From: Fibrobacter sp. UWR4
GTDB taxonomy: Bacteria > Fibrobacterota > Fibrobacteria > Fibrobacterales > Fibrobacteraceae
DNA: 32,670 nt
Assembly: GCF_003149045.1 (NCBI RefSeq)
Contig: NZ_QGDU01000036.1
Span: forward strand, 1 to 32,670
Direction: 5' to 3'
Position 1 is the stretch's first letter, and every line of letters begins with the position of its first letter. The translations under genes were made by a program, and so were the position numbers. Below, one piece after another: positions 3,093 to 32,670 of this stretch. The notes under the pieces are model-generated. The model was not told the origin of the DNA. It did not search any database and saw only the letters and a program-made list of their open reading frames with translations.

Positions 3093-3120
3093 TTGTGCTT
3101 TGTTCGCCTTTTTCTATATT
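3093..3120 (+). promoter_or_regulatory. Promoter of the Na/Pi cotransporter gene
   Basis: TTGTGC (3093-3098) and TATATT (3115-3120) are separated by 16 bases. The start predicted near 3127 gives a transcript leader of about 145 bases, long for this window and consistent with the folded leader described at 3127-3271. Confidence 0.6.
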
Positions 3121-3126
3121 TGGCAG

Positions 3127-3271
3127 TACACTGATAGATGAACAACTACGCCGCGAGTTCGGACTAGCTGAAAGGCAGTGATGATGATCCGATAGCGGCG
3201 CAAACTCTGGCCGGCACGACTGCACCGAATAACATTTGCATCGCGCTTCGCTTAGCCAGAAAGGAATACAT
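3127..3271 (+). promoter_or_regulatory. Structured pseudoknot leader, candidate riboswitch
   Basis: Stem 1 pairs CGCCGC (3149-3154) with GCGGCG (3195-3200). Inside it CGGA (3160-3163) pairs TCCG (3188-3191), and a small hairpin (3164-3178) is capped by a GAAA tetraloop. GAGTT (3155-3159), inside stem 1, can pair AACTC (3203-3207) outside it, which makes an H-type pseudoknot. An alternative stem, TCTGGC (3206-3211) with GCCAGA (3255-3260), shares bases 3206-3207 with the pseudoknot and abuts the AAGGA ribosome site (3261-3265). The two folds exclude each other, as expected for translational control. I do not recognise a named riboswitch class. The downstream gene suggests phosphate or sodium as candidate signals, which is inference. 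Confidence 0.5.
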
Positions 3272-4993
3272 ATGCCCGCTGTGGACATGAAATTGGCTGT
3301 GCTGACGCTTCTCGGCTGTCTTGCACTTTTGATGTACGGTATGAAGACCATGTCCGAAGGTCTTCAGAAACTCACCGGTAACACTCTGCGTACTATGCTG
3401 GGTACCATGACTAAACACCGCGTAATGGGTGTAGCTACTGGTACCGCCGTGACTGCGACTATTCAATCTTCTACTGCTACCACCGTACTTACTGTAAGTT
3501 TCGTTAATGCTGGTCTGCTCACATTGAAGCAGGCCATTTCTATTATCATGGGCGCAAACATCGGTACCACCATCTCCGGATGGATCATGGTGCTGGGCTT
3601 CAAGTTCGACATGCTCTACCTGGTGTACCCCTGCTTCGTGCTGGGCATCATCACCAGCTACTTCAAGAAGAACAGCTCCAAGAGTTTCAGCGAATTCCTG
3701 TTCGGCCTCGCCTTCATGTTGTTCGCCATTACCACCCTCCGCAATACCGGCGCTTCCATGCACCTGGGCGAAATCCCCGCGGTGCAGAACTTTGTGGCCG
3801 CCTGCGGTAACTGGGGATTTGCAAGCACCTTGCTGTTCCTTTTGATCGGTAGCGTCCTCACCATGTGCGTGCAGTCCTCTGCGGCGGTCATGGCGATCAC
3901 CCTCATCCTCTGCTCCAGTGGCGCTCTTGAAATTTACCAGGGCATCGCGCTGGTGATGGGCGAGAACATCGGTACCACCGTCACCTCCAACGTGGTGGCC
4001 TTGAGTGCCTCCACTCAGGCTCGCCGCGCTGCCCTTGCCCACATGCTCTTCAACCTGTTCGGTGTGCTGTGGGTCCTCTGCGTGTTCCATCCCTTCATCA
4101 ACATGGTTTGCGGCATCGTGGGCTTCGACCCCAATGTCAAGCCTTCCACCCCCGAAGAAGTCAAGGCCGCCCAGGACGGCGTCACCTTCGCCGTGGCAGG
4201 CTTCCACACCATGTTCAACGTGGTGAACGTGCTGGTCCTCATCTGGTTCATCAAGCCCATGGAAACCATCATCTGCAAGATTATCAAGGATAAGCCCGAA
4301 GACGACGAGTTCCGCCTCAAGTTCATTTCAGGCGGCATCCTCAGCACTGCAGAACTTTCCATCTTCGAAGCCCGCAAGGAAATCGTTCTCTTTGGTGAAC
4401 GCTGCAAGAAGATGTTCAACATGGTGCCGGACCTGCTGACGACTAAGGATGAAAACGAGTTCACCAAGATTTTTAGCCGCATCGAAAAGTACGAAGGCAT
4501 CAGCGACAGCATGGAAGTTGAAATCGCCAAGTACTTGAACGAAGTCAGCGAAGGTCGCCTCTCTCCGGAAAGTAAGGGCACCATCCGCTCCATGCTTCGT
4601 GAAATTTCCGAAATGGAAAGTATCGGCGACGCCTGCTACAACATGGCCCGCGCCATCAACCACAAGTTCCGTAGCAAGGACGACTTCACCGAAGAACAGT
4701 ACGCCCATATCAACCACATGGTGGAACTCTGCAATGTGGCTCTGGACTACATGATCGAAGTGGAAGAAGGCAAGCCCGGCGCTGACTACAACCGTTCCCG
4801 CAACGTGGAAAACGAAATCAACAACTACCGCAAGAGCCTCAAGGAACGTAACGTGGTCGACATCAACGACAAGAAGTACGACTACCAGATGTCTGTGCAC
4901 TACATGGACGTGATCAATGCTTGCGAGCACTTGGGTGACTACGTCATCAACGTGGTGGAAGCCCGGACCAATAGCAAGAAACGCTCCGTTTAA
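3272..4993 (+). CDS. Na/Pi cotransporter family protein with C-terminal PhoU-like domain
   Basis: This inner-membrane protein of 573 residues has the two inverted repeats of the Na/Pi cotransporter family. Each repeat carries a QSS motif (residues 65-67 and 201-203) and an N-I-G-T-T loop (GANIGTT 94-100, GENIGTT 230-236). The last third (about 345-560) is soluble, helical and PhoU-like, as in the bacterial NptA/YjbB branch. It probably moves phosphate with sodium; direction and role (uptake or overflow export) cannot be read from sequence. I chose the ATG at 3272 because AAGGA lies 7 bases upstream. An in-frame ATG at 3236 has no ribosome site and would add 12 non-membrane residues inside the folded leader. 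A strong terminator follows. Confidence 0.92.
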   Translation: MPAVDMKLAVLTLLGCLALLMYGMKTMSEGLQKLTGNTLRTMLGTMTKHRVMGVATGTAVTATIQSSTATTVLTVSFVNAGLLTLKQAISIIMGANIGTTISGWIMVLGFKFDMLYLVYPCFVLGIITSYFKKNSSKSFSEFLFGLAFMLFAITTLRNTGASMHLGEIPAVQNFVAACGNWGFASTLLFLLIGSVLTMCVQSSAAVMAITLILCSSGALEIYQGIALVMGENIGTTVTSNVVALSASTQARRAALAHMLFNLFGVLWVLCVFHPFINMVCGIVGFDPNVKPSTPEEVKAAQDGVTFAVAGFHTMFNVVNVLVLIWFIKPMETIICKIIKDKPEDDEFRLKFISGGILSTAELSIFEARKEIVLFGERCKKMFNMVPDLLTTKDENEFTKIFSRIEKYEGISDSMEVEIAKYLNEVSEGRLSPESKGTIRSMLREISEMESIGDACYNMARAINHKFRSKDDFTEEQYAHINHMVELCNVALDYMIEVEEGKPGADYNRSRNVENEINNYRKSLKERNVVDINDKKYDYQMSVHYMDVINACEHLGDYVINVVEARTNSKKRSV

Positions 4994-30534: not shown

Positions 30535-32478
30535 TTAGTCCTTTAACTTCATGACATCTGCCAGACCTTCGTAGATCTTGCCGTCGTTATCCACAACGGA
30601 GAAACCGCCGGTGTAACCCCAGTGAGTCCAGGGAATCTGCAGGGTGTCGCAGATTTCGGTCATGGCCTTGTAGTAGTTCAGGACGGACTGGGCGTCGGAC
30701 TTATCGCGGAGGGCGCCAAATTCGTTGATGATCACCGGAACGTTGTTCTTGACGGCCCATTCCTTTGCCGGGAGAATTCCCTTGAGGATAGCTTCCTTGC
30801 TACCGTTCTTGTAGTAGTTCTTGATGGCAGTCTTTACACTGCTCTTAACGCCACCATTCACACCGTAGGTGAAAGAGTATTCGGACCAGTCTTCTGCCAC
30901 ATAGGGGAAGGGAATGTTGTGGATTGCAGCATAGTCGGTCCAGGAACCGCCCTGATGGGTGAAGAGGAAGGGCTCGTAGGTATGGATTGCGTAGACGATG
31001 TTGTCATCGGTAAACGGAGTGCGTTTTGCCAACAGGCTGATGGAGTACCACTGGGCGTCACCGAAGATGATGGTGTGCTTGGTATCAACGCTACGGATGG
31101 CGTCGATCATGGCCTGGGCGGCCACGGTCCAAACTTCAGACTTTACGGCACCGCTGGTCATATCCGGCTCGTTCAGCAATTCAAAGAAGATGTCTTCGCG
31201 TTCGCTATCGGCGAAATGCTTGGCCACATTCTTCCATACGCTAGCCATCATGTTGATGTAGTTGCTGTCGGCAGCGGAAGTCTTGTTATAGCTGTTGTCG
31301 TATTCATGATAGTCAATCACGAAGGACATGCCGTTTTCCTTGGTCCACTTGTCGAAGGCGTCGAGAACGATATAGATGGAATCGTCCATGACGGCTTCCT
31401 TTTCGGTACCAGCGATGAGTGCCTTGCGGTTGGTGGCGTAAAGGTCCAGGTCAATGGGCAGGCGCAGGCTCTTGAAGCCGTTTTCAGCAAGGAGCTTGAT
31501 GTCCTTTTCACCAAATTCGAAGTTGCCGTCGAACTTGCCGTCGGCTTCTTCCAGCCAGTTGGTGAAATTGACGCCCTTGTTTAGGTACTTCATGGCTTTT
31601 TCCTGCAGCGGGTTGCTGACTGCAACGTCGCCGATGGTCACGGTGGGGATAACCGCGGGGGTCTTTTCCATGTCTGCCACATCAACCGGCAGTGCATCGG
31701 TTGCCAGGAATGCCACGTTGTCGATCATCAGGGAATCAGAAGTGACCTTTGCGGATCCCTTGATGTGGAAACTAATCTGGAAGATGTTGTTCTTGTCAAA
31801 GACGACAGGAGTGCCCCAACCTTCCTGGATCAGGTCGCGGAACTTGATGTCCACGCACTTCCAGGCAGCCTTTGATGCAGCGGACTTGATGCCGTGTACA
31901 TCGTAGTCTTCAATGTCGGTTGTTTCTACGCGTGCGGTATGGGCAGGACCCTTATAGCAGTAATGGAAACCTCCGATATTGGAGAAATCCGCTTCGTCGA
32001 TTGCGACGCCAAGTGCTACATACGGATCGTATTCGTAGCCACCTTTGTCCAGGGTGTAGTTGATCTTGAATGCATACTTGGAATTGTAGCCGCCAGCAAC
32101 GGGAACGGGATAGCCTTCATCGCTTTCCGCGGTGGTGATGACGGATGCGCCACCATTGCCCTGGTCGTCATAGACGAACCAGCCCTTGCCTTGGGCGGTC
32201 TCGCCGTCGCCGTCTTCGAAGTCGTCAATCAGGATTCCCTTGGGTGCAAATTCCTCAATGGTACCTGGGGTGGGGTCGGTAGGATCCGTCACTGCGGGAT
32301 TGCCTGTGGTTGTATCTCCGGGAACAGGATCAACAGCAGGAATGGATTCAGTAGGAACGCTCGGATCCGGATTGGCCGGAGCGTTGGGCTTGCTGGAAGA
32401 ATCGTCACCGCAAGCGGTGGCCATCATGGCGATTGCTGCTGCAGAAAGTCCGATAAAGGCTTTTTTCTTGATGTTCAT
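30535..32478 (-). CDS. CBM11/CIA30-like domain plus GH5 glycoside hydrolase lipoprotein
   Basis: The 647-residue protein is a predicted surface lipoprotein: signal MNIKKKAFIGLSAAAIAMMATAC (Cys 23), then a Pro/Thr linker (30-75). A carbohydrate-binding jelly-roll (about 80-258) begins ILIDDFEDGD and ends DSLMIDNVAFL, like CBM11. The GH5 domain (about 285-640) shows KGVNFTNWLE, IDYHEYD, acid/base E437 in LLNEPD and nucleophile E586 in VIINEFG, with H499 in AIHTYEP. It probably hydrolyses beta-1,4-glucan (endoglucanase) or a related glucan or mannan; the subfamily cannot be fixed here. I use the ATG at 32478, with GAGGAAAC upstream. The frame extends 55 codons earlier but across the promoter region. 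Confidence 0.92.
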   Translation of the reverse strand: MNIKKKAFIGLSAAAIAMMATACGDDSSSKPNAPANPDPSVPTESIPAVDPVPGDTTTGNPAVTDPTDPTPGTIEEFAPKGILIDDFEDGDGETAQGKGWFVYDDQGNGGASVITTAESDEGYPVPVAGGYNSKYAFKINYTLDKGGYEYDPYVALGVAIDEADFSNIGGFHYCYKGPAHTARVETTDIEDYDVHGIKSAASKAAWKCVDIKFRDLIQEGWGTPVVFDKNNIFQISFHIKGSAKVTSDSLMIDNVAFLATDALPVDVADMEKTPAVIPTVTIGDVAVSNPLQEKAMKYLNKGVNFTNWLEEADGKFDGNFEFGEKDIKLLAENGFKSLRLPIDLDLYATNRKALIAGTEKEAVMDDSIYIVLDAFDKWTKENGMSFVIDYHEYDNSYNKTSAADSNYINMMASVWKNVAKHFADSEREDIFFELLNEPDMTSGAVKSEVWTVAAQAMIDAIRSVDTKHTIIFGDAQWYSISLLAKRTPFTDDNIVYAIHTYEPFLFTHQGGSWTDYAAIHNIPFPYVAEDWSEYSFTYGVNGGVKSSVKTAIKNYYKNGSKEAILKGILPAKEWAVKNNVPVIINEFGALRDKSDAQSVLNYYKAMTEICDTLQIPWTHWGYTGGFSVVDNDGKIYEGLADVMKLKD

Positions 32479-32489
32479 TGTTTCCTCAT

Positions 32490-32504
32490 TTGAAAACGTT
32501 TTTG
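32490..32504. promoter_or_regulatory. LacI/CRE-like operator upstream of the GH5 gene
   Basis: TTGAAAACGTTTTTG contains the perfect 10-bp palindrome AAAACGTTTT (32493-32502) centred on CG, the core of LacI/GalR-family operators. It lies 12 bases upstream of the GH5 ATG. AT-rich -10-like elements on the - strand (TATACC at 32520-32515, TATAGA at 32526-32521) place it just downstream of a likely transcription start, where a repressor would block elongation. The regulator gene is not in the window. Confidence 0.45.
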
Positions 32505-32595
32505 TTTTTCCAAAGGTATATCTATATCCAAATGGAGGTGTGGGAAAGTTTTTTAATAAAAAAGAAATAAAAAACGGCTCTTCATCAACATGTGT

Positions 32596-32618
32596 GGGTG
32601 GCTTCGCCACCCTTTTTT
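32596..32618 (+). terminator. Terminator-like hairpin in the GH5 upstream region, oriented +
   Basis: GGGTGGC (32596-32602), TTC and GCCACCC (32606-32612) are followed by six T on the + strand, with an extra CAACA/TGTTG pair outside. No + strand gene precedes it for over 5 kb, since the GH5 and peptidase genes are on the - strand. It may end a short unannotated + transcript, or it may only be a fold in the upstream region of the - strand gene. Confidence 0.5.
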
Positions 32619-32670
32619 GTTGACTTTCGCCTAAATTAAACAAAAAATGGGCTATTTTCTAAAATTTAAT

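Follow-up and report, generated by a model that had tools for sequence, protein, structure and literature searches.

A genus-restricted leader RNA upstream of Na/Pi transporter genes in Fibrobacter, a candidate translational riboswitch

Fibrobacter is a genus of gut bacteria that degrade fibre. In Fibrobacter sp. UWR4, a gene for a Na/Pi transporter is preceded by a leader for which an earlier note, made from the DNA sequence, had proposed a translational riboswitch, with a pseudoknot and an alternative stem competing for the region next to the ribosome site. We asked whether this leader contains a conserved RNA structure, how far such a structure extends beyond one strain, and which mode of regulation best accounts for it. 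All coordinates are positions in the window, that is, the whole 32,670-nt stretch of contig NZ_QGDU01000036.1 that was analyzed, and all features discussed lie on the forward strand unless stated otherwise.

A small conserved domain in the leader

The gene at 3272-4993, assigned by Pfam and NCBIfam matches, encodes a transporter with two PF02690 repeats and a C-terminal PhoU domain. On its 5' side lies an element with a core of about 52 nt (3149-3200). The sequence strings quoted in the earlier note were all found where it had placed them, and the minimum-energy fold of 3127-3275 contains the outer stem that it had described, here P1, enclosing CGGA/TCCG and a hairpin at GAAA; the same fold comprises P1, P2, the P3 hairpin and a separate hairpin at 3206-3260. 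P1 is formed by CGCCGC (3149-3154) and GCGGCG (3195-3200) and is followed by a purine-rich loop strand, RARY by column counts (3155-3158), in which A3156 is invariant. P2 pairs TCGGA (3159-3163) with TCCGA (3188-3192). P3, CUAGCU-GAAA-RGCAG (3164-3178), is near-invariant among 32 canonical sequences, and the 3' bulge YGAYGAUGA (3179-3187) is invariant except for C/U exchanges at three positions. Across the relatives, the apical block of about 24 nt, CUAGCUGAAARGCAGYGAYGAUGA, hardly varies, conservation falls on unpaired, near-invariant nucleotides, and the flanking sequence fails to align. The predicted domain is thus a small one, consisting of P1, an internal loop, P2, P3 and a conserved 9-nt bulge. 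The whole leader of 149 nt is no more stable than its shuffled counterparts (z -0.63); the core alone (3147-3202) is (z -2.6, equaled by 3 of 200 shuffles).

P1 covaries strongly. Among 34 distinct sequences, 96.6% of the P1 cells are paired, and the pair 3153-3196 occurs as A-U (16), G-C (13), U-A (4) and G-U (1), with no mismatches. When this pair is mapped on the tree of the downstream proteins, about five changes are seen on each side, with pairing always kept. The twelve P1 columns were then made to evolve independently along the protein tree, with the number of changes kept as observed; the observed P1 pairing was not matched in any of 1500 such simulations, even when each column was limited to the bases seen there. 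In P2, the outer pair 3159-3192 shows a C-G to U-A exchange, C3160-G3191 and G3161-C3190 are invariant, and the remaining pairs are mismatched in some species. P3 varies too little for a covariation test of its pairing, and its substitutions fit an alternative register, GCUG-AAARG-CAGY, equally well. A DNA operator was considered and rejected, as it cannot account for the compensatory changes in P1. A conserved cis-acting RNA structure is, in our assessment, nearly certain.

The competing folds fared differently. The window is the only sequence in which the proposed H-type pseudoknot, GAGTT/AACTC (3155-3159/3203-3207), attains five pairs in this register; the pairing is broken in the closest relatives, most other species retain three pairs or none, and the 3203-3207 partner is not conserved, so that compensating changes among homologues, on which the earlier note had staked both helices, speak for stem 1 and not for the pseudoknot. 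The TCTGGC...GCCAGA stem (3206-3260), which had been viewed as the alternative to the core, does exist and is maintained in the subclade of the window, where six distinct sequences share it with a tip of variable length; it is absent from species outside this subclade. It does not overlap P1-P3, and it is present together with them in the predicted fold, so the part of the claim by which it would exclude the core does not stand. Because the pseudoknot is confined to the window and the stem leaves P1-P3 free, the idea of mutually exclusive folds, which depended on the pseudoknot, is unsupported, and no conserved fold of this kind that might explain switching was found among the relatives compared. 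The stem behaves like an inserted spacer.

Leader start, phyletic distribution and gene context

The leader probably begins shortly after a promoter-like element, TTCTATATTT (3112-3121), which is conserved in relatives and features TATATTT at 3115. This element is rare by chance (2 occurrences in the window against 0.05 expected), and most relatives carry a similar box 33-37 nt on the 5' side of P1. A sigma-70 scan detected no promoter, so we infer the promoter from conservation, with transcription starting near 3127. The earlier note had used a promoter to place the start about 145 bases before the ATG; given the similar box before P1 in most relatives and the rarity of TTCTATATTT, a leader of about 145 nt is credible. 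At five loci (L065, L066, L067, L245 and L246), the Na/Pi gene has a TATATTT box just before the ATG and no RNA element, as if these were natural deletions in which the element had been lost cleanly. That the box is kept in the element-less genomes supports a transcription start upstream of the element.

A covariance model built from 17 sequences gave a hit to the element, with E below 1e-17, in 68 of the 80 Fibrobacter genomes; outside Fibrobacter, no comparable match was obtained among the 168 Fibrobacterota genomes searched (best E 0.002). The presence of the element follows that of the transporter, with 68 of the 75 genomes of the genus that possess a PF02690 gene containing it as opposed to none of the 5 that do not; the 12 genomes without the element therefore include 7 with the gene. 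Two copies occur in a few genomes, where each lies on the 5' side of its own Na/Pi paralogue. A DNA search of 61 relatives recovered the core without its flanks in most genomes of the same genus, and in sister genera the element is missing from the Na/Pi leaders. The public records with the element are, among the matches listed, named Fibrobacter, and a scan of viral contigs did not find it. Hits of a loose 24-base pattern to GTDB contigs of other organisms, among the matches listed, were discarded, as those inspected fall mostly within long coding frames and pair poorly.

At every locus examined, the Na/Pi reading frame lies directly 3' of the element; at a few loci, the automatic choice fell on an out-of-frame ORF, with the transporter start close by. 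The surroundings of this pair of features differ. The gene order ispF-NaPi-tex is found in the window and its relatives, the transporter gene stands alone in other Fibrobacter genomes, and a third group (L080/L271, L268 and L269) has an operon NaPi-phoB-phoR-NaPi. The two regulators of this operon are referred to only as PhoB-like and PhoR-like, because their best models, PhoB and PnpS/PhoR, scored under the model cut-offs. Neighborhoods vary, then, and the RNA stays with the transporter. Elsewhere in the window, positions 108-2084 encode a predicted secreted protein of 658 amino acids without a Pfam match, and positions 30535-32643 of the reverse strand encode a protein of 702 amino acids that contains a GH5 cellulase domain (PF00150).

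Three genomes contain a natural variant of the element (L060, L061 and L062/L269) that has the same P1 and P2 and a different apical sequence, CCGGTGGCATGGGATGTAAAAA. In each of these genomes (G118, G142 and G034), the variant precedes a second Na/Pi paralogue, and a canonical copy is found elsewhere; in G034, the paralogue preceded by the variant heads a phoB/phoR-like operon (L269).

Mode of control and competing explanations

The Shine-Dalgarno sequence AAGGA (3261-3265) is located six bases before the ATG at 3272 and is unpaired in the predicted fold. Of 27 sequences outside the subclade of the window, 26 have 6-10 nt between P1 and the Shine-Dalgarno sequence (AGGA), and the remaining one has 13 nt; within the subclade, the inserted hairpin leaves an unpaired linker of about 6-9 nt in most members. 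These short linkers, preserved even where a hairpin has been inserted, suggest that it is important for P1 to lie near the ribosome site. In most species outside the subclade, the Shine-Dalgarno sequence itself is predicted to lie in a hairpin, UAGGA-nnn-UCCUA. A related pattern is rare elsewhere, with 0-3 occurrences in each of seven genomes, a count that misses copies whose stem overlaps the ATG. The core and this hairpin coexist in the predictions, and in the window the ribosome site is predicted to be open. No terminator was found within the leader, and, since P1 also lies near the ribosome site, translational control is the favored mode.

Taken together, these observations are best explained by a ligand-sensing RNA, an orphan translational riboswitch candidate restricted to one genus, to which we assign a probability of roughly 0.6. 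The translational riboswitch of the earlier note thereby survives as a conserved, gene-specific structured leader near the ribosome site, stripped of its pseudoknot and its exclusive switch. Under this scheme, a ligand would bind the invariant nucleotides of the loop and the bulge and stabilize P1, and the folded domain would probably alter the access of the 30S subunit to the ribosome site, given the 6-10 nt that separate P1 from the Shine-Dalgarno sequence and the similarly short linker that the subclade hairpin leaves. An OFF switch appears slightly likelier than an ON switch. Judging from the identity of the gene and from the phoB/phoR-like operon of some species, plausible first candidates for the ligand are a phosphate-status signal or Na+, and that the ligand does report phosphate status is a tentative, rather unlikely proposition. 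Equally tentative is the broader possibility that the element represents the first natural riboswitch class for phosphorus homeostasis, which would control Na/Pi transport by directly sensing Pi, polyphosphate or a phosphate-status signal; the PhoB/PhoR-like pair would then be co-controlled in some species, and the variant would be a case of a swapped apical sensor domain.

The same conserved nucleotides could instead be contacted by an RNA-binding protein, whether a global regulator or one dedicated to repressing or activating translation here. The confinement of the element to a single genus and, in essence, a single gene family, as well as the repeated YGA triplets of the conserved bulge, would suit such a site, but no regulator gene is present in all neighborhoods, the phoB/phoR-like genes appearing only in some, and the three-genome variant exchanges the apical domain yet keeps P1 and P2; we regard a protein site as possible and rather unlikely. 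It is improbable that the element is a constitutive 5' structure, one that determines the stability of the mRNA or ribosome standby and senses nothing. The element does sit at the 5' end, between the promoter-like box and the ribosome site, and some genomes devoid of it retain the box and the gene, but helices alone would suffice for a stabilizer, and the most conserved positions of the element include unpaired nucleotides.

Pairing of a trans-acting small RNA with the apical block would be in keeping with the near-invariance of its approximately 24 nt; P3, however, takes up much of this block in the predicted fold, and a simple target would not need the conservation of P1 and P2, which makes this explanation very unlikely. 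Finally, the window does contain an in-frame ATG and stop codon at 3130-3170, encoding MNNYAASSD* and overlapping the 5' strand of P1, as would befit a leader peptide that controls attenuation and ends at the invariant UAG of CUAG. The start codon and frame are not conserved in relatives, the changes track P1 pairing rather than codons, and the leader has no terminator, so that the leader-peptide attenuator is refuted as a conserved feature and, as an explanation of the element, is scarcely credible.

Relationship to known regulatory RNAs

In agreement with the statement of the earlier note that no named class could be recognized, searches of Rfam with the window and five relatives produced no match to any family at strict or permissive thresholds. 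Even with E allowed to reach 10 for the window and 5 for the five relatives, the covariance model of the Na+-I riboswitch (DUF1646) gave no match; that of the fluoride riboswitch (crcB) had none in the window or in the five relatives. Inspection also led us to dismiss CUGA...GAUGA as a kink-turn or box C/D-like motif, the required side having no stem. In some members of the crcB class, UGAUG follows a hairpin capped by GAAA, a likeness that serves as a lead only.

The element is apparently undescribed so far. No description of a regulatory RNA or riboswitch in Fibrobacter was found in the literature searched, and the class would be an addition to this genus; the main texts of two genome surveys, one of them PMC11109978, do not mention Fibrobacter. 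According to a 2022 review of riboswitch ligands, no class is directly tied to phosphorus homeostasis and none is commonly found with phosphate transporters, the fluoride riboswitch preceding phosphate transporter genes only occasionally (PMC9971707). With a conserved RNA of about 55 nt that occurs only before Na/Pi genes and sometimes heads a phoB/phoR-like operon, this gap becomes directly testable.

Among the characterized classes, the Na+-I riboswitch (DUF1646 motif) resembles the Fibrobacter element in being a small RNA domain in the leaders of sodium-linked transport genes (PMC9337991). The published model of that class, however, is built of two extended helices, P1 and P2, and its conserved clusters are found in the loop of P2 and at the bottom of P1. 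In the Fibrobacter element, by contrast, conservation is concentrated in a single stacked stem, in its bulge and its hairpin. The element differs from the fluoride riboswitch (crcB motif) in that no conserved pseudoknot was found in it. A further parallel is offered by orphan riboswitch candidates obtained by comparative genomics, for example the nqrA-II or mgtE motif (PMC11109978), which differ in gene, host and sequence and share with the Fibrobacter element the general character of an orphan, conserved and taxon-limited leader RNA with covariation that precedes an ion transport gene.
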